From: Apostichopus japonicus | Taxonomy: Eukaryota > Echinodermata > Holothuroidea > Aspidochirotida > Stichopodidae | Length of the DNA stretch: 64,000 bases | Assembly (NCBI RefSeq): GCF_037975245.1 | Contig: NC_092579.1 | Location: forward strand, 3,372,001-3,436,000 | Reading direction: 5' to 3' | Shown: positions 12,525 through 62,917 of the stretch, piece after piece | Layout of the letters: the number at the start of each line of letters is the position of its first letter | Numbering within the stretch: the stretch's first letter is position 1 | The notes under the pieces: model-generated | The model's input: only the letters and a program-made list of their open reading frames with translations | The model's database searches: none | Told to the model about the DNA's origin: nothing | Translations under genes and position numbers: made by a program

Positions 12525-13307
12525 ATGGCCTCCTTTATTTCCGCAATTGAAAAATTCGCCTCTAGTTATGACGAACGAGTAACACGAGAATGGATCCATA
12601 GACATTGGCCAAAGACCATAGCAATAAGCGTCATATACATCATACTAGTCTTCTCTGGGAGACGCTGGATGGAAAAGAGAGAAAAATACAACCTCAGATG
12701 GGCTCTCACTCTATGGTCTGCGTCTTTGGCGCTGTTTAGCATCATCGGTACTTGGTTTATGTTGGGGAGAGCAATCCACGATTTACGCAAGTACGGGTTT
12801 CGACACACCATCTGCGACAACACCTTCTACTACACAGGACACGGTATTTGGTTGTATTGGTTCTGTTTGAGTAAAGTCGTGGAGTTGGGAGACACATTTT
12901 TCATCGTTGTTCGTAAACAAAAGTTGATGTTCCTCCACTGGTATCACCACGTGGCTACCTTAATCTTCACATGGTATGGATATGGCAATGAGATTGCGCT
13001 TGGCATGTACTTTGCAGGCATCAACTTTGCTATTCACTCCTTCATGTACTCCTACTACGCTATTCGTGCATCTGGATTAGTGCGCATGCCTCGGCAAGTC
13101 AACGTCACGATTACGTCATTGCAACTTTTGCAGATGGTGTTTGGAGTATACGTTAATATCTACGCATACAGTGAGCTGTTGAACAGTCGTCCATGCAATA
13201 ATAACTTGTCCAGTATATATTTTTCTTTCGTCATGTACTTCAGCTATGTGGTTTTGTTTGCAAATTTCTTCTATCAGAACTACATTACCAAACAGAAGCA
13301 TTCATGA
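12525..13307 (+). CDS. ELOVL6: ELOVL6-like elongase, copy 2, C-terminally shortened
   Basis: 260 residues, nearly identical to copy 1 with a few substitutions such as Ile10 to Lys and Met89 to Lys. All catalytic signatures are kept at the same positions: KVVELGDT, HWYHH, HSFMYSYY, TSLQLLQ. The reading frame ends at a TGA (13305-13307) where copy 1 has GGG. After the TGA the frame stays open for 17 further codons ending in KKET, so the KKxx ER-retrieval signal is lost by a point change. The 5' acceptor AG (12503-12504) and 20-nt leader match copy 1. The AATAAA that copy 1 has at 2661 is mutated here; another lies at 13474-13479. It may be functional with altered trafficking, or on the way to becoming a pseudogene. 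Confidence 0.88.
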   Translation: MASFISAIEKFASSYDERVTREWIHRHWPKTIAISVIYIILVFSGRRWMEKREKYNLRWALTLWSASLALFSIIGTWFMLGRAIHDLRKYGFRHTICDNTFYYTGHGIWLYWFCLSKVVELGDTFFIVVRKQKLMFLHWYHHVATLIFTWYGYGNEIALGMYFAGINFAIHSFMYSYYAIRASGLVRMPRQVNVTITSLQLLQMVFGVYVNIYAYSELLNSRPCNNNLSSIYFSFVMYFSYVVLFANFFYQNYITKQKHS

Positions 13308-28417: not shown

Positions 28418-28440
28418 ACGATATAACTCATACTTTCAAA

Positions 28441-29298
28441 ATGCTACTATCAGCTATAGAAAGGTTCGCTTCGACCTACGATGAGCCAGCGCTCATGGAC
28501 TGGTTGCTAAGGCACTGGCCGAAGACCGTCTTGATTAGCGCCATCTATATCGTGCTTGTGTTCGCTGGAAAACGGTGGATGGAAAAGAGAGAGAAATACA
28601 ACTTAAAATGGTTGCTCACCCTCTGGTCTGCATCCCTGGCGATATTTAGCATCATCGGTACATGGTTTACATTTGAGAGAACATACAATGATCTACAAGA
28701 GCATGGATTCAAGTACACGGTCTGTGATAATACCTTCCTGCACACGGGACAAGGATTCTGGCTCTACGTGTTTAGTCTTAGCAAGATTGTCGAGCTGGGA
28801 GACACGTTTTTCATCGTCGCTCGTAAACAGAAATTGATCTTTCTTCACTGGTTTCATCACGTTGCTACGTTAGTGTATACTTGGTACGCGACTGGAAACC
28901 TTGTAGCAGCCGGCAGATACTTCTCCTCCGTAAACTTTGCAGTCCATTCGTTGATGTATTCGTATTTCGCTATCCGTGCTTCCGGTCTTATCCGCCTGCC
29001 CCGTCAAGTTAACATCACGATTACATCACTACAGCTGATACAGATGTTCTTTGGTATTTACGTCAACGTGTACGCCTACATTGAAATCTCCAATGGACGG
29101 CAATGTGACAACACCTGGCCTAGTCTTTATGCCTCCTTTGCAATGTATGCCAGTTATGTTCTGCTCTTCGCCAACTTTTTCTATCAAACCTACTTAGTCA
29201 AATCGAAACTGGGGCCTGGTAAGCCCCATACAAATGGCGTAGTGAAAAATGGAGCCGTTGCACAGAATGGCTATAGGAGTGGTAAGAAGGAAATTTAG
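28441..29298 (+). CDS. ELOVL6: ELOVL6-like elongase, copy 3 (diverged paralogue)
   Basis: 285 residues in a single coding exon and clearly diverged from copies 1 and 2 over the whole length. Signatures KIVELGDT, HWFHH (Tyr to Phe within the histidine box), HSLMYSYF and TSLQLIQ are present. The C-terminus ends KKEI, a KKxx ER-retrieval signal. The leader TTTCAAAATG and the splice acceptor 23 nt upstream match copies 1 and 2, so all three descend by DNA duplication from one gene with an intronless coding region. Two AATAAA signals follow at 29438 and 29452. Confidence 0.94.
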   Translation: MLLSAIERFASTYDEPALMDWLLRHWPKTVLISAIYIVLVFAGKRWMEKREKYNLKWLLTLWSASLAIFSIIGTWFTFERTYNDLQEHGFKYTVCDNTFLHTGQGFWLYVFSLSKIVELGDTFFIVARKQKLIFLHWFHHVATLVYTWYATGNLVAAGRYFSSVNFAVHSLMYSYFAIRASGLIRLPRQVNITITSLQLIQMFFGIYVNVYAYIEISNGRQCDNTWPSLYASFAMYASYVLLFANFFYQTYLVKSKLGPGKPHTNGVVKNGAVAQNGYRSGKKEI

Positions 29299-35700: not shown

Positions 35701-36987
35701 TCTTCAAAGGAAGACTGCAAAATGCCTTTCATCATAGTATTAACATAAGCACCCACACCTATTAATGTTAATTATTAATTAGATTATATGAATAATATTA
35801 ATTAATCATGTGCTACTAATATAGCACGGAACTAAATGCACCTTTTAATACCACACACTGCTGAAATCGGTACGCAACCTTCCTCCTATCATCACCGAAG
35901 AGAAGATAACATTCCAAATGTATCACTTTTCAAGAAGAAGACTTAAACAAAGATTATAACAGTACATAATTAACGATTTTTATAGATATTTGCCATGAAA
36001 ACATCATGGAAGAAGCAGTGTGTTTTATTTCTTCAAGAAATGAAGTTTATCTGGGCTAAAAATTCCATCTAACAACAATGATTATATTGATATCTGACAA
36101 AAATAGTTTTATTTCTTAATGCCTGATGATTTGTGAAAGACTGTTTATGTACAAGTTTATGATTTTTAATTTAGAATATTAAAATTCTCTGAGCCAACAA
36201 TTTTGAGGTACCTGAACAATGGTAGACATTTCAGTTGAAAAAAAAATAGATATAAACATTTTATAGTGGGTATTCAAAGTATGTGAAGAGTATAACTGTG
36301 AAAATATTTTATAAGAAGTTATCAGGAAATATACACAATCTTCATTTTTACCAAAATGTTCATAATTCTGTTATATATCATATAATTTGCATCTGTTTAT
36401 TTTGCAAACATGCACAAGCAATTAGTGCCAGAATCCCCCCTCCCAAATAACCCCTACACTTCACAACCAGAATCCCCCCCCCCCAAGAAAAAAAAAACTC
36501 CTACACCTCACAACCACCCCCACTACATAATATTACAGGATGTACCACACAGCCTCGAATGATTATTTCCAAAACACATTAACAGTTTGCACTGCAATAC
36601 CGCACTGCAATACTTGGCAAGGTTTCCTTGGTTTCTTTGAAATAGCACATAGATTGACCCTGTATGAAAGATATTACTGATAAAAAAAGGGATTCAGAGA
36701 GAAAGAATAAAAATCACTGGCTATTATCATTCAGAAAAATATTAAAATTTACCTCAAAATATTCTCTGCAAGGATTTCACTATTTAGGTACATAATAATA
36801 ATAAAGTTCGTTCACACAGTACCACCAATTTAAGTGTCCTTAAACTGTATCAAACAAGATCGAATATAAAAAAACTGTAAAAACTCTTAAAATTCTCACT
36901 GCTGAAACTTTGGATAGAAAATTAAAACCATGCATGGAAGGCCACCTGCTCATGGGAGATCAAATGCCTGAGATGGAGCGCCAATGA
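32743..36987. other. Gene-poor stretch; right part may be 3' UTR of the minus-strand gene
   Basis: No coding exon recognised. Poly-C/G runs lie at 33428-33440, 33487-33498, 34074-34084, 34825-34836, 35238-35247 and 36472-36484. From about 34200 the sequence is AT-rich and largely free of recognisable transposons. Several minus-strand AATAAA hexamers (TTTATT as read on +, for example near 34283, 36021 and 36397) would allow a long 3' UTR for the gene ending at 37018, but its true end cannot be set. Confidence 0.4.
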
Positions 36988-37039
36988 TTAATTAGGCCTG
37001 AAGCTGTTCATCGTTAATTAGGCCTGAAGCTGTTCATCG
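36988..37039 (-). repeat. Perfect 26-bp tandem duplication spanning a stop codon
   Basis: Two exact 26-bp copies (36988-37013 and 37014-37039). The gene-proximal copy holds the last codons and TAA (37018-37020) of the minus-strand gene; the distal copy lies in its 3' UTR. The reading frame is unaffected because the stop comes first. Confidence 0.9.
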
Positions 37040-40000
37040 TTACTCTCTTCATTCTCAAAGCTGTTTCGAATACTGTCCAAGAAGCTCATTCCTGTTTCAT
37101 TCATGATTTTCTGTTGTTGATGGAAGGACTGCTGTCTTTTCTGTTGAGGTCAAAGGTTTACATACAGTGTCAAGGAAAGGAACAGAACATTAAAGGAGTT
37201 GGCCGAATTTAAGTTGGCTGAATAAATTATAATGTTGATAGTACTAAACATCATATAAGTCATTATAATAACGATGTAATGATATGAATCTTGCTTGTTA
37301 CACCTAACCAGTCTAACAGTTCAATTGTAACTCATCACTGGACTCATCATTGGTACAGTATCTTATTACTTTCTTTAATACTTGGGAAATTGAAGGCATT
37401 GAACTCATCATCAGTGAATTGCAAACCATATTAAACAAAGTTGCTCCAAAAACAAGTAACTTAAAGAAGAGAACTGAAGCCCCCAGGAGCACAGAATGCT
37501 TCATTGGCTTATTGACCAGCAAATGTTTATGAATTTAAGAGCGTCTGATTGCTATTTGTGACAACAATCAAGTAGATCTTTGCTACAGACAACAACACTT
37601 TCACAGTCGTCGTTCCTAGGCCTAGCATAACTAAAACCTCTGGCGGCTACTTCTTATCAGCTGATTTCATCATCGTGTTTGGTGAGAAGAACACTTACCA
37701 ACACAGCTTGTTTTTCCTTTTTATCTATAGTTGTATCTGAAGGACTACTTTTATCTCGCTCCTTAGAGTCCTGTTTGGTTTTTATTTCTTCCTCTTCTCT
37801 ACCTGATGCAGTACCTGCTCTCACCTCTCTCTCCCTACTAGGTGACCTGTCAAACAAAGAAAGAACATTGTTATGAACAATGTTATCAAGATTAATGCTT
37901 AATTTAGTTTCATTAAATTTTATCCTGGAAGGTACATCTAACCAAACTTCATTGCATGAATGAACTGATCTTACACGAGCATCTGGTGGGTTAACAATAA
38001 TTTTAAAAACAAAAATTCCCAATTTTTGGGTAGTTCTGACAAAAGTGGAAATAAGAGGCAGTGGAAAAATGTTGCCGGAGGAGATTTGTCCATAATGTTA
38101 CTCCGTATTTGAGCACCAGAAGGCAAATTGTCAGATTGTAGACTAAGCTTTTTTAACTTCACATCTCAAATCTACAATTTCCATGTAGGTACTCTTCAAA
38201 TCAATGTTTTCCCACGAAGAGCAGGTGGACCGACTTCTCAACTAAGCCCGCTTCCAGGTTGCAACAAGTTGTTTTCCTTTCTTCACATTAAATATGTAAG
38301 CCTATATCACATCTCGTAACCCTTTTCACACACTAAAAAAAATGTTGTTCGTTGCTGTTTGAACTTTGGGAAATTGTTTCAGCTTACACCAAGAAAAGAG
38401 GAAACTAGATAATTAAAGCATCACTCTTTACCTGGATCTGATTTGGCTCAGCGAGCTCTCCGATCGATTTAATTCACTCTGGCACGATCTTAAAAATTCT
38501 GCACAATCTTGATGTTGGTATTCATCTGCGAGCTCTAAAGGAGGGCGCCCCATCACATCCTTGGCATCAAGGGTGGCGTTATTTGCGACCAGCCACTTGC
38601 AACAATCAATATGTCCACTTGAAAGAAAAATACAGAGTAACAACACCAATGTTACTAAAAACATCAAAATCAGTAATTTGTGTTTAAGTTATGATACAAC
38701 ACTACCAGTATTTTGTATCTCTGTTGAATGTTTTGATTGAACGTGGATGTGCCATCCTGTCTATTTAACTTGCGTTCCCGGTTCTGCCAAGAAGATCCCA
38801 CTAGGATCAAAATGTCAGACGCTCTAACTTCCGCAAAATTACCTTCACATGCTGCTTGTAGTAGATGAGAAGTATTATTTTATCTTTCTGGTTGAGAATT
38901 GTGTTAATTATATTAACAAATATTAATATGTTTCAAAGGAAGGGTGTCATCAAATAGTAAAACACTCCTTGATAGGACAAAGTTCTAGGCATGAGCCTGG
39001 CACAGGCACAACACCTGAATTTTAATGACTCTAAATTTTCTATTAAGCAGACGACACAAGACCCCATATGGTTAATGATTGAATAGAAGTCAAGATATTG
39101 CCACAAAATATGGTGAAAATTAATTAAGACTTTTGTTGCATATGGACTTTGGAAAGGTATCGAATTGGGAAAGGTATATGCATTGGAACATATTCACTAA
39201 TAAAGAAATCAGATTATCTAAATAAAGTTGATTTTTAAATTGTATCTGGTTGCAAATCAATATTTTAAGTCACCATATAGTGTTGAGTGTATATATCATT
39301 ATTATTATTATTATTATTTACCAAATTTATATAGCGCTTTTTTCATGCTTAAACATGTTCAAGAGCGCTTTACCATGACAACAAAATGACAAAACCCTTA
39401 AAATATGAATATGAAGAATAAAATTAGCGCAGCTTAAATTTTAATAAAAAAATATATATATATATATTTACGAAGGAATAATTTAAAAAATATTATAGGT
39501 TTACAGTGAAATTCCTAAAAAAAAAGAAAAAAGTGAGTTTTAAATTTAAGAAAACAAAATGACATTACATTAAATACCTTATAATCAACCTTTCTCTGTC
39601 AATTCTGAAATCTATTTTTACTTACTTCATGGCTGCCAGATGAAGTGGTGTTTGTTCATCCACTGTGAGGCAATCTACGTCCACCCCCAGTGCAACCAGA
39701 ATCTTCATCACTTGAACGTGTCCGTTCATCGATGAGAGATGCATGCAAGAGTATCCCGTCTGGGTCAATTCGTTAACAGAGGCATCGTTCATAACGAGCC
39801 ACTTCACCAGATCTAGTCTACCATGGGAAGAAGCCACGTGCAGTGGAGTCCGCCCTCGTTCATCAGTTGTTCTGTAATTAAAAATCAAAATTACATTTAT
39901 GGTTAGCACAAAAAATCCCCATAGTGACATATGAAAAATTTCTCCATATTTCATAAAGACGCCCAGAAAGATGAGAGCTGTGATCGTTTCCCACAAAAGC

Positions 40001-43000
40001 CTGCACAAATGCCACAAACCTCCTACGAAATCATTGTTAAATTTCTAACCCTTAAATATAGTTAAAACCAGAGTTAACATAAATGGGAAAAAACTTTTCT
40101 TAGGAATAATCTTGGTGTATTGTGTAACAGGAAAAAATAATAAACACACTTTCTGTTTTTAGGTATAATTTCACTCTGAGAGCTATCGCGTGAATGGAGT
40201 CAAATTTAAGGTAATTGGTGCACCCTCCAAGACTCTGTGATGTGATTGAAAGAAGGAAACTTTGGTGATTATCAGTGAACACATAAGGCCTTTTTCCAGC
40301 CCTCCTCCCAATCTCCCTGCCACCAATAATTCTTTCAAATCCATCTAAATTGTTAATTTATCTACCAACATGTGATTTGTACATGCTTACCCTATGACAT
40401 CATGAGAATAGTTAATGAGCTTCTTAACCCTGGTTAAGTCTCCAGTTTGACAGCATTCGTGGATGGATGGTCCTTGTAGCATCAATCTCTCCTCTTCCTC
40501 CTTCATGTATTCCTCCTCCTCCCTCCTCTCATCCTCCTGTCTCCTTATCTCATCTTCTCTTGCCTTAAGTCCGGCCTGTCGGCCATAGAAATAAAAAATT
40601 AATAATTAATTGTACTGAAAGGTTAAAAGAAAACAATGGCTGCGCCACAACCAGGAGGGGAGGGAGGGCGGGGTGCAAAGTTTACCCTTTTAATAAATTT
40701 ATATTGCCATTTTGGTAGAACATTTTCAATTTTTGTAATTTAAAAGTGTCCTTTCATTGAAGAACATTTTGCACACTGATAAATTGTGGTTCGGTATATA
40801 AGGACAGAGGGTCCACTTCATGTTTTCTCAATTTAATGCTCTTTCATGCACCCCATCAAGTAGCCAAGATCAATGACTTCTTAAAAAAAATGATGGTAGG
40901 GCCAAAAAATTTATACAAACAAATGAGCTCAATTCTTCAGTGAGAATAAACACTGCTAAAAATGTCGTGCAGTACAGATATAGCGCCAGGACTAAGTTTG
41001 TATTCATTACAAATGCAAATATGCAAATTAGATTTCCATACAAGGAGAAACAGCAGTCATATTTCGCCTCACCTTGAATCCAATCATGTAATTTTCTCTT
41101 TCAGCGATACCATCATCAGAAAGTTCTCTGATGTTGTTGTTATTATTCACAGAGTGAGATCGTCTTCCCTTGCCCCTTCTCGCTGGTTCATCATCGCTTG
41201 AACTGTCACTCTCGCTGTCACTGGTTCCACTACTGCTGCTGCTGGAATCATCCCCCCTCTTCTTGCGGCTTCTGCCTCTCCTGTCCGATTCACCGCTCTC
41301 TGAATCCGATCCTGTCGTGGTATGCCCTTTCCTGCTCTTCTTTGATCGCCTTTTGCTAGCTCTAGAATTTTAAACAAGATAGAGCAGAAATTTGAAAAGG
41401 ATAGAGGATAAATTATATGTACCCTTCTCAAAATGGTCAGTTACAGCACAAGAATCTTTTACATGGAAATTTTTTTTAAAAACATCATAAATTTTTTTTA
41501 TAAAAGAGACATTAAAGCAAATTTTATATTTTGAGTTAAAATTTGTTATGACTAATTCATGCAAGTTCAAAGGACCATTCTCTTTGTCTTAGGGAAAGAC
41601 ATCACGGTTAACTGGAGACAATACCATATTAGGCCCCACATTTTCCTGGGTCACCTTATTGTCAATGAGCAGGGGGGCTGTAGCCCCCCCCCGATGCCCC
41701 GCTTGTCTGCCATTGGTTGCACCTACTATGGCAAGTTACTTGCATACATCTTGGAGACTGAATATTTCATACTGAAGAGATAAACAGACAGTTACATGAC
41801 TCACCTACTACTACTACCCCCATCACTCCTGGCTGACAGGTAGTCACTGCTCTGGCCGTTATCGATGCCTGTGGCTTCACTGAGGTGTCTATCGGTGTCA
41901 GAGACGGCACTAGTACTCGTATACCGTTTATCATCATCCTCACTCTCAGAGCTGGATGAGACCTCTGAAAAAGAGCATCAATATCAAGGAAGTATTAAGC
42001 AATGCAATCTTAAATAAGAGTAAAGTATTCATTATTTATGTCTCATGAAGTGAATGGTAATGCAGTCCAGTGAAGTCATCACATTGTCACATGTACAAAC
42101 AAACCTTTTGAAAAATTCAAATCACTATTTTTCTTAACTTCCAGCAAATTCAGGGGAAATAGTTAAGATATAGAAGAGAGATGAAAAGAATCCCCAGATA
42201 TAGGTTTAATTGTGTAAGTTTTAACTTGTCCTTAAGGTTAGGACTTGTAAAACCTTCTGTTTAAGTTTCAACGGTACAGACTAAGAATTGAATATTTCCG
42301 TTTTAGTTGACTTTGTTGTTTTGGCATTAAAAAATCTTTGAGTGATACTAATACAACAAACTTTCCAATTAACACAGTTTGCGCTCGATTATTTGTGTTG
42401 TCGGTATCTTGTGTTTGCACACACATGAACAGTTGCTCTCTGGGAAATTTAAACCAATCATAAAGTTATATATGTTAGAGAATCATTCAAAACTGATAAG
42501 AGGTGTCCTTCTCACCCATGATGACATTTGTGACTGGCAGAGTTCTTTCCGTTCTTCCATCGTCATCCTGCGCCGAGAACCAACGAGAGCATACAAACTC
42601 GTAGGTCACATTGTTGTCAAATTCACGGATCAGCACCTTGTCACAGAACCATCCGCAACCTGAGAGTAGGGAGAAACAAGAATGAGCATCTTTACAAAGT
42701 TATAGAAGGCATTATTTTACAAAGTTAATCCAAAGACAACTGATATAGATACCAATAAATGCTTCAGGGTATAACAATCTTTTGGTTGTGATCTGATGCT
42801 GGGCATTCCCTCCTCCTTTCCCAACACCCAAGAGAGACCAAAACTGAAGTGACGGTTTAGATTTCCTCCTAGAAATCTTCTCTTTTGTGTGTATTCAGAA
42901 ATGCATGTTTGCTGTTTCAAGTTTATAGTGAAAAATTTATAAAAAAGAACTTAACAAAGCAATAGTAAGTTAACCATTGCAATTTTCTTTAAGACCATAG

Positions 43001-46000
43001 GTTTTAATCATATTTGGCAGATTCCATCATACTCTGAATTATTCCCAAACTTTAATACATTACAGTTAAATATCACAGCTGAAGTTTGAACTTTGACGAC
43101 CATTAATTAACTTTCTAGCATATTGGTTGGTGGGGAGTGAAGAAGGAAGTAAACCATTGTTTTAAAGGATTCTTAATTAAGAACTGCTTACCAAGCTCCT
43201 TTCTTTCATGACCGATACAGACACATTCCAATCTTCCAACAAAGAAAGATTCCACTCTGAAAACATCAATCTGTAAATCAAAATGTAAAAAAAAATAGCT
43301 TAAAAAGCAAATGGAAAACTTAAAACAGCAACAACAACAAATTCAATGACAAGTTCATAATACGAAAAGATATTCGGAAATAATTGCAAGTGTTTTATCT
43401 AAACTATCACGTCTCTATTGCATTTCACGATACACTTGTCAATGATACATTCACGAAAAAAGAAAAGAATACATTGCTACCAAGAGAAGGTTCCTGTCCA
43501 GATTTAGTACTAGTTGATGGGGAGGGAAGTGGAAGGGACAAAACTGTCTCTTAAGTATGTAATTGTAGCTCTTCGACAATGATTTTTAACCTGGTGGATG
43601 GATGGAATGATTGTGGGCTTGGTTTCAAGGCAAGGACCATCCACCATCTGTTGGAATGTACACTAAAGATATCATAATATGAATTTAGCTATCCATACCC
43701 AAGTAGTTTTCTCATAATCACAAAGAAACCGCTATCATCCTTCGCAAAATGTACAAAAGTACAAACCTGTCCTTTCTGGAATTTCATTCTGTCTCCCTCT
43801 TTCGACTGTTTCAGTTTAATCTTGCCGGTGTTCCCCTTCTCACCGAAGAGGATGACGAAGATGTCGGCCGTGGTGCTCGCTCCGAGTCTGCTCCCAGTGT
43901 GGATGGCCATCTCGTACACGGTTCTTCGGCCAGATTTGATCTTCGGTCCGTGCTGGAGGTGCTCAAAGGTGTCGTCTTCCGGTTCTTCCTCTGAGGCACT
44001 GGGCGTCATCTGAGTACCCATCTCGGGAGCTTTGGGCTCCGTCTGGGTACTCATGACGTTCACTGTCTGAGTACCCGATTCTGGCATGGTCTGGGTACTC
44101 ATAGCAGGGTGCTCCGTGGAGGTCTGAGTACTCACTGCCGGGGGCGGAGGTAAAGTCTGTACCTCCACACTTGGATTCATCTCCATGGTCTGCACCTCCA
44201 CACTAGGGGGAGGGGAGTGGGTCTGTGTCTCGACGCTAGGTGGCGGGGGTATCGTCTGGGTCGACATGGATATCGGCGGGGGGTCGGTCTGCATGGACAT
44301 ATCCGCTTGATAAGGATCTGTCAGACACTCGACGGTGTTAGCCCGTCTGGTCTGGGTGTCTTTGGAGTTAATGTTCTCGACTGTCTGCATCTCTGCCTCT
44401 TTGACAGTCTGAGTGGTGTTATCGATGGAGTAGAGGTCAGGATCTTCTTCGTCTGCTGCTTTGACCGATTCTTCTTCTTCTTCTTCCTCCTCGTCATAAA
44501 CTTCTTCCTCTGCTGGCCCATCGTCGTTAAGACTGACCCTAGACATCTTGATGCTGCAAAATGACAGATATAAATAGACTCTACTCAGATCCACCAACAA
44601 TACAAAAACAGAACAAACAGTACTGTCAGCATAAAAACCTTGCAGAACCAACTAACTAGAGCCACACCTTTTCCCCTTCCAGTTCCCGCTATCTCAACCC
44701 CCCCTCAAAACAAAAGAAACAAAGAGGAGAAAAACTGAATAGACACCTAAAACTCTGAAACAGAAATAACTATGCAAGTTTATAATGTGAATTAGTTTAC
44801 ATGTAACATGTGAAATGTGATAAGTGCATTCACATATAATGTGCGGGTCAATTAACTCAACAGGAACTATTTTCCACTGTATTAGTGCACTGTGACTACA
44901 AGAAATATATAGGCTATGTTCTGTGCAAAATGAGCTTATGTAGCTCCACACTTTGGTCTACTGAGCTCAATGTTTGGATTCCTCGTTGGTGACTACGACA
45001 CTACCTGGAATTAATGCTTTGATCCCATAACATTCCACGACATAAATTTCTTTAGTTACGTTACACACATGATGTGTTGTACTTACTTCAACCACTCTGG
45101 GTTTTGGGTTGAAGTGGCCACAGGAACCAGCATGTTCATACTTCTGTCCGACACCTCCGATACATCGTCTGGCTCAACTTCTGACTCGGAGGCCTCGTAA
45201 TGTCTCTGTGGCTGTACGTAATAGTAAATAACGATACAACATCACGTTAACGATAACATAAGTTATAATTACACAGCAGCGGCTGATAGAAGCTTAATAT
45301 TCACGGTATCCTTCTAATTTTAACAGAGTGAGCAGGATTATCAGGCTGACGTTTTGGGTGGTCTGGAAAATAGCCACCTTCTTCTCTCCCCTCCCATTCC
45401 ACACTGCATGCACACTATCCATTTACAAAGAGTTACATGCCATTTGTTACTTTAGTTTAATTTGGTTTAGCCTAGAAAAAACAGACAAAATGCAAGTTGT
45501 GATTCAATCTTTTATAGAATGACTCACCCATTCAACCTGCCACCCTTTCATTCACATTATTTTGTATCTATTCTTTGGGATTGAGCGACTGATGTTTTCT
45601 TTTGTCATCATCTGTAAAGCGCATTGAGCAACTTTTGTTGGATTCTGCGCTATATCAGACTAATTATTGTTATTATTATTATAGACTTATTATATCTCTG
45701 TTATCAATGCATTTGGAATGCAGCAACTTTGGCACGAAAACAGGAAGTGCTACAAGTAAGAGTACATAGATCTATGTGCAAATAGAAACACCAAGCAATT
45801 ATGTTTATGAGTTATGTTTTAAACTTAAACTCGGAAAATCATCGTCATACTTTAAATTGGAAACATGATTCAAGATAATATGATGATAACCTGTTTATGA
45901 AGACGAACTCTTCTCCCCAAAGAATCATATCCGTATCGCTTGGTACTGGGATGGGCTTCGGTTGCCTTCGGTCCGGTCATGGCAGACTTGGGACGTCCAC

Positions 46001-49000
46001 TCTTTGGTCTGGTTGGACGAATGCCATACGTAGACTTAGGTCTCTCTGGACGGTGTTTCATTGAGGAATTAGCAGCACCGCCAATAAATGGAAGCATCTC
46101 TCTGTCTCCATTTTGTCGAACTCTATACACCTGGAGAATAAAAAACAAGCAAATGTAACAAAGTCAATTTTTTTTAAGGTTCAAAATACACATAATGAAC
46201 ATATTTATGATGCCAAAAAAATATTTTTGTATTACAATGTACAATTTATCTTTATGACAATAAAAACTTACATTGGAAGATTTCTTGGATTCGACAACTT
46301 GGTTTTCAAGAGGTATTGTCTCCTGAAAGAGAAAAAGAAACTTCAGTCAGTAAATTACTTGAATTCATGTATCTTTGTACATTGTAAGATATATAATTGG
46401 AACACATTCATCAATTACCCCTATCAAAAGCAAAAATAAGAAAAGGGGAAAAAAGGTCTGTTTATTTTAAATATTCTGGCATATGTAATCTCAAGTTGAC
46501 GAGCTCGCCTTCTAGTTTGCTGAAATCACCACAGCTAGAGCAAGATCCATATATTAATGGCTGAATTAGGCTGCTTTCTTCTGTCCATTTTTTTTTGGTT
46601 ATATTTTGTAATTCTTTTAAGCATACTTCAATATTTAGGAGAAAGGGCTGTGACCATACATTGTTAGCTTTAGAGAATTGCTTGGTTACCATGCAGCTCT
46701 GAGTGATAAATAGAATAAAGTATTAACTTATAATGCATATCTTTGTGTATGAAATTTAAGGATAACAAAATATGTTTTGAAATAAACTTTTGCACAAATA
46801 AAAAGGAACTTACACTAGCAACTAGCATTTTAGTGGCAGTATTTATCAGCCTTTGAGCTTCTCCCTTAGTCAAGTATGGACCATGTTTAGATCTCAGCAA
46901 GAATGGACCTCCTTTAAAGTTAGATCTCCTACAGAGGAAATGGGGAAAAGAATTACATGAAAAGAAATAATATTATAACAGCTGGTTGAATATTATTAGC
47001 AAAGTGTTGTCAACTTGTGTGAGGAGGCCTTGGTACAGTACAAGACTGTAACCATTAAATGTAACTCTTTTAACTTTAAATCTGCACAATCCCTCTGTTG
47101 TTGTTGTAGTAGTTTTTTTTTCACTTAGGTACTGGATGTAATGTCCATGCAAGTGTTACTTGCATTCAAAATAATGCAAGTGCTAATTGCATTCAAAATG
47201 TTTCACTTTTCTATTTTTTTTCTGATTATTTCTTCGTGCAACCAAAATGGTGCAACCAGTTGATGAAGAGCCAGTTAAATGACTTGTTGGCAGCTCATCT
47301 TTTATCTATACAAAAGAATCCATGGCCAGGCAAACCAGATGTGAAAGTGTTTTAGACCTATGCTACAGGTTGTGATATTTGTTATCAGAATTTACAGATT
47401 TTCTTGATCAATTAACTAAACATATATTTGTGTGTGTGTGTTTACAGTACTTATATAAAGATGATCATATTGAAAAAGCAAATAAAAATTTGCTAACAGT
47501 GTGAAGAAATGTATTATTTATAACCTAATATATCCAATTCGATAAAAGCAAAGTCGTACCTCTTCTTGGGTGAACTAGCCCTTGGTCTTACAAGATGTGA
47601 CGATTGGCCCTGAAAGAATAGATAAAAAGAAGCGAAAAGTTAAAGCAGTTTTATAACATTTACCGATTGTGTCTTCTTTACAGAGGTAAAATTAAATTGA
47701 ATGGGATCAAAATTTGTATATATGATGGTAGTTCCATTTTTCAATTTCTCATTTGAAGTTCCCTGAATGACAACACACACTTACTGTTCAGGCCTTTGAG
47801 CTAAACAATATTTGCTGATAATATGCAGTAATACAGAACTGTTACAAATTTCATGCTAATTCTATGACTGATGTTTTTTGTTTTGAACTAACTATGTGGT
47901 TAACTTCTTAATGTCTACTAGCAGGAAATTGCCAGTGAATTTCTTTTCTACTGGCAAAATCCATTGGCATTAAACCAGTATATAACCTGAGTTTCAAGGC
48001 CATGGTTAAAAGTGTTAATTTCAGTTGCATTTTTATTTTACCTACCTCAGTTGAATAAAAAAAAATCTCTACAAAATTATGAAAGTTTGCAGCTGAGCTT
48101 TTTCTGCTGAAACTAATTGAAATATGAGATTATCATATCCCATCTAGTAGAAACAAATTTTATAGTAATATGACAGAAAACCAAATTTGAAAATGTCATT
48201 ATATTTGTCATTTCTCTCTGAACAGAATAATAAGAAAAGCTCATATACTCACTGTAAATTGGGATTTGGACATGTACTTATCAACATCACGTCTGTGAAG
48301 GGAGAAATTACAAGAAAAGCACTTTAACTTATTGAACTGACTCATCAGGGAAAAAGATTGAGAAGAAGAAAAAGTAAGAGCACCAAAGGTGCGGAGGTTT
48401 ACGCCTTCAATTACATTATGGCATTGTGAGAATGGAACCACATATGACTGAGTCTCTCTTTATAATTAACATTTTTTCTTCAATATCTGAGCCCCTCTCC
48501 TCTCCTCCCCCCCCCCCCCCCTCCCTTCAATTCAACCATTGATATTATTGGCACATCCCAAGAGACATCTCAACGGTCATGAATTTAGCAATTTAGTCAA
48601 TTGTTAGTTAGGAAGACAGGCTCGGTAAAAACCCATGGATTTCAATGACAGAAGCATTTCTTAATTGATCTTTATGCCCAAGTGTATATATGCAAATAAC
48701 TCTATCTAGTTTAAACCTGCAATCTAATAAATATGCTTTCAAATTATTTTCACCTCCACTCATATCAGAACCTAATTTCACATCATTGAAACTGCAAATT
48801 TCTTAAATAGTGTCCAAATTTATGTTCTTTATTTTTTTTTCTTGGGGGGGCGGCGAGGGGGAGTAATTTTTTTGAACGTGAAGCGGTTTCATCGAATCTA
48901 ACCTGACTTTATCTTCCCTTTCAATATAACTTGTCTTTGGATTCATCTGAGCTAAATGCTTCTTGACTTCTGGACTTCGAAAGTAATGCTTTAAAGCTCT

Positions 49001-50613
49001 GTCATGAAGCCCATCATAGAGTAATGTTGGTCGCTGAAAGTAATAATGTAAAAGAACAGTTCATATACACTTGAACTTAAATTTAATTCAGTTTCTACAT
49101 TTTATTCCTTCTGAACTTCTTTTTTGAGATATTCTCATTAGTTATGTATAAATATGATTTGTAACAAAAGTAAACTTGAAGCAAACAAATGCGGTGTGTC
49201 AGATGTTACAAAGTACAATAAAAAAATTCTTTTACATCAGAGATGAAAAATATACTCAAAGTGATTGGGATTTCATGTGTTTTACACCCCCTGTTGCAAA
49301 TGTTGAAATTATATCAAAATCAATGTCAAAATAATAAAGTGAAAAATAAAGAGAATAACAAAATTTTGCTAATTAAATGTGCATCTTTGATATCACACCT
49401 GTTTACTTCAAGTTCACTTAGGTACAAACAATACAATCTTCAAAATTGTACATCATCCACATAAGCACTTGTTCTTTTAAATGTATGTTATAACTGGTTA
49501 AATATATTCAAACATTTACGTTAACATTTTGATCTGAGTAAGACAAATTTAATTTCTTTTTGCCCTTGATTATTAATATGAGCAATTCACTGAATAACAA
49601 TTTTGGAAAGACACAAAACTTCACATTTAAATTTGCTAGCAATGACAAGTTTCTTTTGACCTTTAGAGAGAATTGCAATTACATAAATTAAAAGTTTGAA
49701 AGTAAATAAATGCTATTTAAATAATTTTTGCAATAATTTTGAAAAAACAAAACAATTCTGACAATAACAACATGAGAAAGATTATATGAAAATCAATCAA
49801 ATGTACACTTTACAAATGTACTATCTGAAAAGGCTTTTTGTTCTCACCGGTTTCAATGCTGGATAATGCCTTTGTGGTTTGTCAGGTCCAGACAAATCAA
49901 AAGCATCTTCAAGTCTTTTCACTTCCATGTAATATTTACTGCATGAAAAGAATGAAGCATGCACAGTTGTAATGTACTTATATATCAAAAAGATGCAAAA
50001 GATGATTCTGCAGATTTTGTTTATCAAACTGCAACTAAAGTTTAATTAAAATTGAGTTCAACTTGATCATTTGATGTGTATTATCACATATCAATGTTAT
50101 AGTATGTAGTACAATCAATAATAGATGACATCTATACTAACATGAAATATCTTTAGTGCAGCTATAACAATTGTAAATACATGGCCACATACTACGCTAG
50201 GCCTAGATAAGAAAGTATAGCCTTGGCCTATAAGAACTGTCTGACATAATATAGACATAGGCTAGTTAGGCCAACGTACATGCAGTAAGAAAATGGAAAC
50301 CTAGTACTAGACCACATCTAAGCACACGTTCCACGGCTGTTCCCATATTTACTTCATAGGTCTGTTGTTTTGTACCTGTTACTTTGTCTCTAAATATAAT
50401 ACTGTTCATGACGCTCAGCCTTTGCACTTACAAGCGTACTCTATGTATAGCATACTAAGCAAAACAAAGTATATTAGCCTATATCATGTGACTCAGACTG
50501 AGAGTCAGACCCAGTTAACTTCATCTTTACTTCGATATTGTCATAAATAAGCGAAAAGCGTGATATACATACAGTTTCCTTGCGGTGCTCTTTATAACAT
50601 CTTGAGAAGACAT
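37018..50613 (-). CDS. Probable ciliary protein: ERICH3-like N-terminus, TQT array, PLAT domain, ankyrin repeats
   Basis: Nineteen exons with GT-AG sites and consistent phase give 1,076 residues: 50573-50613, 49848-49938, 48903-49033, 48253-48292, 47560-47609, 46814-46928, 46272-46322, 45891-46130, 45087-45211, 43767-44553, 43192-43270, 42516-42659, 41805-41964, 41073-41361, 40391-40575, 39626-39871, 38432-38617, 37699-37846, 37018-37140. Residues 45-101 (RPTLLYDGLHDRALKHYF start) resemble the ERICH3 N-terminus. An acidic stretch (310-335) precedes 12 QT motifs plus one TQM (341-477). A PLAT/LH2 domain spans 506-613 (YEMAIHTG, ADIFVILFGEKG, CIGHERKELG, GWFCDKV, CSRWF). A Ser/Arg/Glu-rich linker spans about 632-781, a charged helix 782-812, and 4-5 ankyrin repeats about 815-980. 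The tail is basic and Gln-rich. PLAT and ankyrin domains mediate membrane or protein contacts. TQT motifs and an upstream X-box suggest a dynein-linked ciliary role; that is inference. I do not recognise an orthologue by name. Confidence 0.88.
39296..39390 (-). mobile_element. Retroposon 3' tail (GCGCTATATAAAT plus (ATT)n)
   Basis: On the minus strand, taaagcgctcttgaa is followed by agcgctatataaattt and an ATT/ATA trinucleotide tail. This pattern recurs at 45555-45690 and is common at 3' ends of SINEs and LINEs in animals. It lies in an intron of the 37018-50613 gene. Confidence 0.5.
45555..45690 (+). mobile_element. Retroposon 3' tail (GCGCTATATCAGAC plus (ATT)n)
   Basis: The phrase tgtaaagcgcattgagcaac, then gcgctatatcagact and a (TTA)n tail, is the same tail type as 39296-39390 but on the opposite strand. 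It is intronic, and the 5' part of the element is not recognised. Confidence 0.5.
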
Positions 50614-51019
50614 GGTCGTTTCACCTTCTTGGAATCAAATATGGTTGTTAATTACACCTTGTTATCAATATCAGACACATTCATTAACTACTCAGACGCT
50701 TGCTTACACTCACATTGACAACTAAGCTCTTCCGCATATAAACGCTGAGTTGCTATGGAGACAACAGTAAAGTTATTTGAAGTTTGTGTAGCGACATCCT
50801 TGCAGTGGTAGAATAATTGTAATTAAAGACTTTAAGAATGGAAGCTAAAATCGAAATGCCCATGATATGTTCTTTTTCTTCTTTTAAGACGATATTTAGG
50901 GCTGAAACCTTCAATTATAATAATTTTGGCAGTCTTGCACAAACAAAGTGCAACTAGGCCTAAGCAGTCATCCATGTTGCAAGATATAATAGCTTCGTGC
51001 ATACTTCATAGTAAACAAG
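50614..51019. promoter_or_regulatory. Bidirectional promoter between divergent genes
   Basis: 406 bp separate the ATG of the PLAT-ankyrin gene (minus, 50613) from the ATG of the DHX40-like gene (plus, 51020). No other gene fits, so both 5' UTRs and start sites must lie here or in unseen upstream exons. It contains an X-box-like palindrome (50749-50762). Confidence 0.7.
50749..50762. promoter_or_regulatory. RFX-type X-box motif
   Basis: GTTGCTATGGAGAC fits the imperfect inverted-repeat consensus bound by RFX factors (GTTGCYATGGNRAC-like). It is 136 bp upstream of the minus-strand ATG and 258 bp upstream of the plus-strand ATG. In animals, X-boxes within a few hundred bp of the start mark many ciliary genes. 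Binding is inferred. Confidence 0.6.

Positions 51020-62917
<11,898 letters not shown>

Follow-up and report, generated by a model that had tools for sequence, protein, structure and literature searches.

Gene structure and domain composition

The stretch of DNA described here, referred to as the window, comprises 64,000 nucleotides of the genome of the holothurian Apostichopus japonicus (NCBI RefSeq assembly GCF_037975245.1, contig NC_092579.1, positions 3,372,001 to 3,436,000 of the forward strand), and harbours on its minus strand (37018..50613) a gene whose predicted product combines an ERICH3-like head, a long array of QT motifs of the LC8 (DYNLL) type, a PLAT domain and ankyrin repeats. 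When the exons are rebuilt from the sequence, 19 of them join into a single uninterrupted reading frame of 3,231 nt, which corresponds to 1,076 amino acids (aa) plus the stop codon; all 18 introns are of the GT..AG type and the exon phases agree. An earlier note on this DNA had proposed 19 exons and a 1,076-residue in-frame product with the same end coordinates, in all of which it agrees with the rebuilt exons. The exons were picked by splice signals and frame, aided by a crude, home-made splice score for which sites above 1.5 are reported. Weak spots of the model are the donor of exon 1 (ACT/GTATGT), which falls below this reporting level, the donor of exon 8 (2.0) and several acceptors, namely those of exon 9 and exon 19 (2.2 each), 14 (2.4), 17 (2.7) and 15 (2.8). 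The last exon, including the stop codon, lies at 37018..37140, and the region 36300-41072 contains two AATAAA signals, one inside exon 18 (37781) and one downstream of the final stop (36396). In addition, the stop codon lies within a perfect 26-bp tandem duplication of 2.1 copies, reported by Tandem Repeats Finder at 36988-37042.

The PLAT domain (aa 508-624) is encoded on the minus strand by exons 10-12 (42538..43916) and matches Pfam PF01477 in one stretch only, at 56.4 bits (cut-off 23; E 5.9e-15); its relatives of known structure in the PDB are AOS-lipoxygenase and polycystin-1 (E ~3e-7). It is followed by a Ser/Glu/Lys/Arg-rich linker of low complexity (approximately aa 632-781; exons 13-14, 41073..41964, minus strand), recognised by its composition, aa 627-815 containing 43 acidic, 35 basic and 39 Ser residues. 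Exon 15 (40391..40575, minus strand), whose junction with exon 14 is the doubtful one of the model, encodes a charged Glu/Arg/Lys stretch and the beginning of the ankyrin repeats, which extend over approximately aa 819-970 (exons 15-17; 38482..40464, minus strand). These repeats match Ank_2 (PF12796) with 97.9 bits against a cut-off of 27.3 (E 5e-28, best stretch 819-909) and PF00023 in three stretches (85.6 bits, cut-off 21.1), and their PDB matches reach to about aa 970. Both the single PLAT domain split over three exons and the C-terminal ankyrin repeats of the earlier note are therefore confirmed by Pfam.

Searches of the animal's own genome (672 Mb, 35 contigs) returned 20 PLAT matches outside the gene at E ≤0.01, of which 13 lie on C16 (8.459-8.490 Mb), four on C9 (the best with 36% identity, E 2.9e-15) and three elsewhere. 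The clusters on C16 and C9 may represent LOXHD1-type arrays. LOXHD1 carries its PLAT domains in a tandem array, whereas the gene described here shares the domain with LOXHD1-type proteins but has a single copy, set among other modules.

An array of evenly spaced QT motifs

The QT array (aa 342-466) is encoded wholly by exon 10 (44040..44414, minus strand) and consists of 12 [T/M/V]QT triplets, eight of which are TQT. Successive motifs are separated by 8, 11, 21, 11, 11, 11, 11, 11, 11, 8 and 8 residues, so that seven gaps measure exactly 11. Among 20,000 shuffles of aa 321-500 the maxima were 8 QT, 4 TQT and 2 gaps of 11, as compared to the 12, 8 and 7 observed, which substantiates the long QT-motif array of the earlier note. 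A thirteenth xQT triplet, a solitary TQT at aa 879, is found within the ankyrin repeats. Even at its lowest score, Tandem Repeats Finder did not detect a repeat in the DNA that encodes the array, which suggests that the 11-residue period has been kept at the level of the protein rather than stemming from a recent duplication of DNA.

LC8, a dynein light chain, binds eight-residue motifs in which the TQT core is complete or lacks no more than one residue (PMC9481538). All 12 sites agree with this description, by way of their selection, and eight have the full core. Since the motifs are eight residues long, the 11-residue period would leave linkers of three residues, and short linkers are reported to yield stable duplexes (PMC10046861). 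In Drosophila ASCIZ linkers of six and nine residues gave homogeneous duplexes (PMC10046861). Two points weigh against a perfectly ordered ladder: the three-residue linker of Drosophila ASCIZ formed stable duplexes that went off-register at high LC8 (PMC10046861), and the three gaps of eight residues leave no linker at all, hence neighbouring sites there may not all be occupied together. The predicted number of sites (about 12) equals or exceeds the 11 functional ones of human ASCIZ, by far the most known in 2018, while Nup159, with five sites, forms stacked linear arrays (PMC5963919). The genome also contains potential partners, as five Dynein_light (LC8-family) matches were found, all above cut-off and one of them partial with an internal stop.

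Resemblance of the head to ERICH3

The head (aa 45-101; 48253..49033, minus strand) is encoded by exons 3-4, which flank an intron at 48293-48902, and resembles the head of the ERICH3 encoded elsewhere in this genome. The local alignment of the two heads scores 53 points, a value that none of 5,000 shuffles attained (mean 25.1, standard deviation 4.7), and includes 27 ungapped residues of which 9 are identical and most others similar. Furthermore, an intron seems to occupy nearly the same position in the two genes, to within 2 nt, in phase 0 here and in phase 2 in ERICH3 (acceptor placed by eye).

ERICH3 (C1orf173) is a ciliary protein (PMC6848114), and a separate ERICH3 gene is present in this genome, where its DUF4590 domain was found in two pieces on C17, both above cut-off, with a typical head ~9 kb upstream. 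DUF4590 (PF15257) is absent from the Pfam scan of the 1,076-aa protein at E ≤1, which means that this protein is not itself an ERICH3. The two proteins appear to be weakly alike in the N-terminal head pattern, and in this genome both have TQT motifs: ERICH3 (L014, ~2.46-3.59 kb, C17) has two TQT just after DUF4590, RGTQTD and VIATQTE, and only 7 of 20,000 shuffles reach two. The LC8-binding optimum obtained by phage selection is VSRGTQTE (PMC3078936), and the closeness of RGTQTD to it suggests that ERICH3 itself may bind LC8. No PLAT or ankyrin sequence was seen by eye in the open reading frames (ORFs) of the 20 kb around ERICH3 on C17, and PMC10299642 mentions ERICH3 once, in its reference list.

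Further comparisons with this part of the protein gave no additional relatives. No Pfam match was obtained for aa 1-308 at E ≤1, no credible PDB match for aa 1-499 at E ≤10, and no match to the head in the viral contigs scanned. Two phage tail-sheath sequences returned from the PDB with aa 1-499 (E 0.84 and 0.86) were judged to be chance, and a locus on C7 matching the head (E 2.97) was rejected as an apparent tandem repeat, by eye. The idea that DUF4590 might be a disguised PLAT was likewise discarded, because 3,154 of 5,000 shuffles reached the score of aa 506-630 against the DUF4590 of this genome.

An X-box-like site in the shared promoter region

The start codon of the gene (50613) faces that of an opposite-strand gene (51020, plus strand), presumably a DEAH-helicase by motifs recognised by eye, and the two genes are therefore expected to share the intervening 406 bp as a promoter. 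Two short pieces of the helicase-like gene had no Pfam match at E ≤0.001. Within the gap lies an RFX X-box-like site, GTTGCTATGGAGAC (50749..50762, unstranded), 136-149 bp upstream of the ATG. It is the sole exact match to the strict pattern GTTGCYATGGNRAC in the window, where 0.03 are expected and 3 of 100 shuffles have one, and it also fits the published form GYTRYY N1-3 RRHRAC (PMC2375033), for which 0.07 matches are expected in the 407 bases tested. Altogether, a site close upstream of the ATG is returned by the strict pattern and by two restricted published ones. For the looser form RYYNYYATRRNRAC, seven places in the window account for ten matches, compared to 2.7 expected, which indicates that loose X-box sites are common here.

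Several observations weigh against taking this site as a sign of ciliary expression. The strict pattern was written after the site had been seen, and the promoter stretch contains nothing that fits RTNRCC N1-3 RGYAAC, the published consensus with the least degeneracy. The site is shared with the divergent helicase gene, and the presence of an X-box ahead of a gene in a single species is described as not predictive of RFX-dependent expression (PMC2375033). Moreover, in the 2.5 kb preceding the first visible head exon of ERICH3 (whose true first exon was not located), there is no strict X-box and one loose site at -828. The site upstream of the ATG can thus be regarded as a hint of ciliary expression and not as proof. 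Taken with the weak ERICH3 resemblance and the LC8-type array, it lends indirect support to the ciliary role that the earlier note had proposed. Elsewhere in the window, another X-box-like site is legible on both strands at 59018-59031 (GTCACCATGGAAAC / GTTTCCATGGTGAC).

Alternative explanations

That all 19 exons belong to a single gene and a single transcript, as the earlier note proposed, is supported by their phases and splice signals. Alternatively, the stretch could yield two products, which we consider unlikely: a head-QT-PLAT protein terminating shortly beyond exon 14, and a separate ankyrin protein or isoform encoded by exons 15-19. Within the intron that separates exon 14 from exon 15 (497 nt), an alternative acceptor at 40614 scores 5.1, compared to 2.8 for the exon 15 acceptor used, and its use would add Y-N-stop directly after exon 14 and end the protein before the ankyrins; the same intron holds two ATTAAA (40689 and 40832), and exon 15 has two internal Met codons ahead of the ankyrin repeats, all of which count against one transcript. 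However, the intron contains no AATAAA, and the exon 14 donor is among the strongest of the gene (7.1), with a phase 0 that fits exon 15. An ankyrin-less isoform alongside the full form is quite possible, and a mixture of isoforms seems more likely than two genes. As for the array, it might be a low-complexity Pro/Thr/Gln spacer devoid of LC8 sites, in which case the protein would be an LC8-independent PLAT-ankyrin membrane adaptor. Only one of the 12 sites fits the strict form [^P].[KR].TQT, only one has the [TVI]Q[TV][DE] with which the natural consensus ends (PMC3078936), and numerous TQT peptides are reported to fail to bind LC8 (PMC6607443). Nevertheless, neither the abundance of QT motifs nor their spacing in phase with 11 residues is close to what chance would give, eight motifs have the full TQT core, and a plain spacer appears unlikely.

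The resemblance to ERICH3 could also stem from convergence or chance, given that it centres on a short Y-x-x-L-x-D-x-x-L-x-x-Y-F pattern. With aa 1-294 as the query, 10 of 5,000 shuffles reach the score of the alignment to the ERICH3 head, and this figure is the fairer one because aa 45-101 had first been chosen by eye. A genome-wide search with aa 45-101 at E ≤10 recovered the gene itself and one chance match and missed ERICH3; a second collinear block (RPxS/TAP) between ERICH3 and aa 102-294 was not significant (225 of 5,000 shuffles), and the protein lacks DUF4590. These points are countered by the ungapped alignment with its nine identities, by the intron that seems to lie at nearly the same place in both genes and by the presence of TQT motifs in both proteins. 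We therefore regard chance or convergence as a real possibility, yet the less probable one, and distant kinship of the head to ERICH3 as somewhat the likelier. Accordingly, the N-terminal resemblance claimed by the earlier note holds as a resemblance, while homology is likely rather than settled.

A candidate multivalent LC8 client

The explanation we favour, and which we consider about evenly poised between holding and failing, is that a single gene encodes a multivalent LC8 client, most likely used in ciliated cells. In this scheme LC8 dimers would dock onto the regular series of QT motifs in two chains and fasten the chains together in register, like a zipper, so that a stiff, stacked duplex results. 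Such a duplex could bring PLAT domains together in pairs, for contact with lipids or proteins, and likewise the ankyrin repeats, for contact with cargo or partners, and the ERICH3-like head may provide an additional targeting element. A more specific version, in which the protein would represent an undescribed animal class, namely a ciliary scaffold distantly related to ERICH3 with an LC8-ladder rod of ~12 in-register sites that bears pairs of PLAT and ankyrin modules between the membrane and the axoneme, is put forward as a speculation that we think unlikely to be correct in full.

Like the multivalent LC8 clients ASCIZ/ATMIN and Nup159, this protein has TQT-type motifs in succession within a disordered region, but those two are a transcription factor and a nucleoporin, and neither is known to carry PLAT or ankyrin modules. 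LCA5 (lebercilin) is not known to have PLAT or ankyrin modules either. LCA5 is likewise ciliary and oligomerised by LC8, both of which are predictions for the protein described here, but it has two motifs together with coiled coils (PMC9481538).

The earlier note knew of no named family with this domain order, and in agreement with that the order of ERICH3-like head, QT array, PLAT and ankyrin was not found described in the open-access literature, among the matches listed; a query for glutamate-rich protein 3 in cilia proteomics had no match in that literature either. The parts are known and their order is unfamiliar, and the long, evenly spaced LC8-type array is more interesting than the domain order. 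ASCIZ and Nup159 were in 2018 the only clients with a characterised role for their multiple LC8 sites (PMC5963919), and knowledge of LC8 function in cilia has been called limited (PMC9481538). If the proposed reading is true, a client with twelve close candidate sites plus PLAT and ankyrin modules would be a natural test case for LC8 as a structural glue in cilia, and it could hint that ERICH3-type proteins act via LC8.

Other features of the window

Three intronless-looking ORFs for fatty-acid elongases (Pfam ELO) lie on the plus strand at 1410-2240, 12525-13304 and 28435-29295. The first two are near-identical by eye; recent tandem copying is probable. In the DEAH-helicase-like gene, which runs from 51020 onwards on the plus strand, a large minisatellite built of GGCTGGACTGTA-type units is found in the introns, as are a satellite of the TTCTA type and a tandem duplication of 160 bp, the repeat stretches being located at 53.2-54.5 kb, 55.0-55.3 kb and 55.58-56.0 kb. 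The 160-bp duplication copies an exon-like stretch of the gene.

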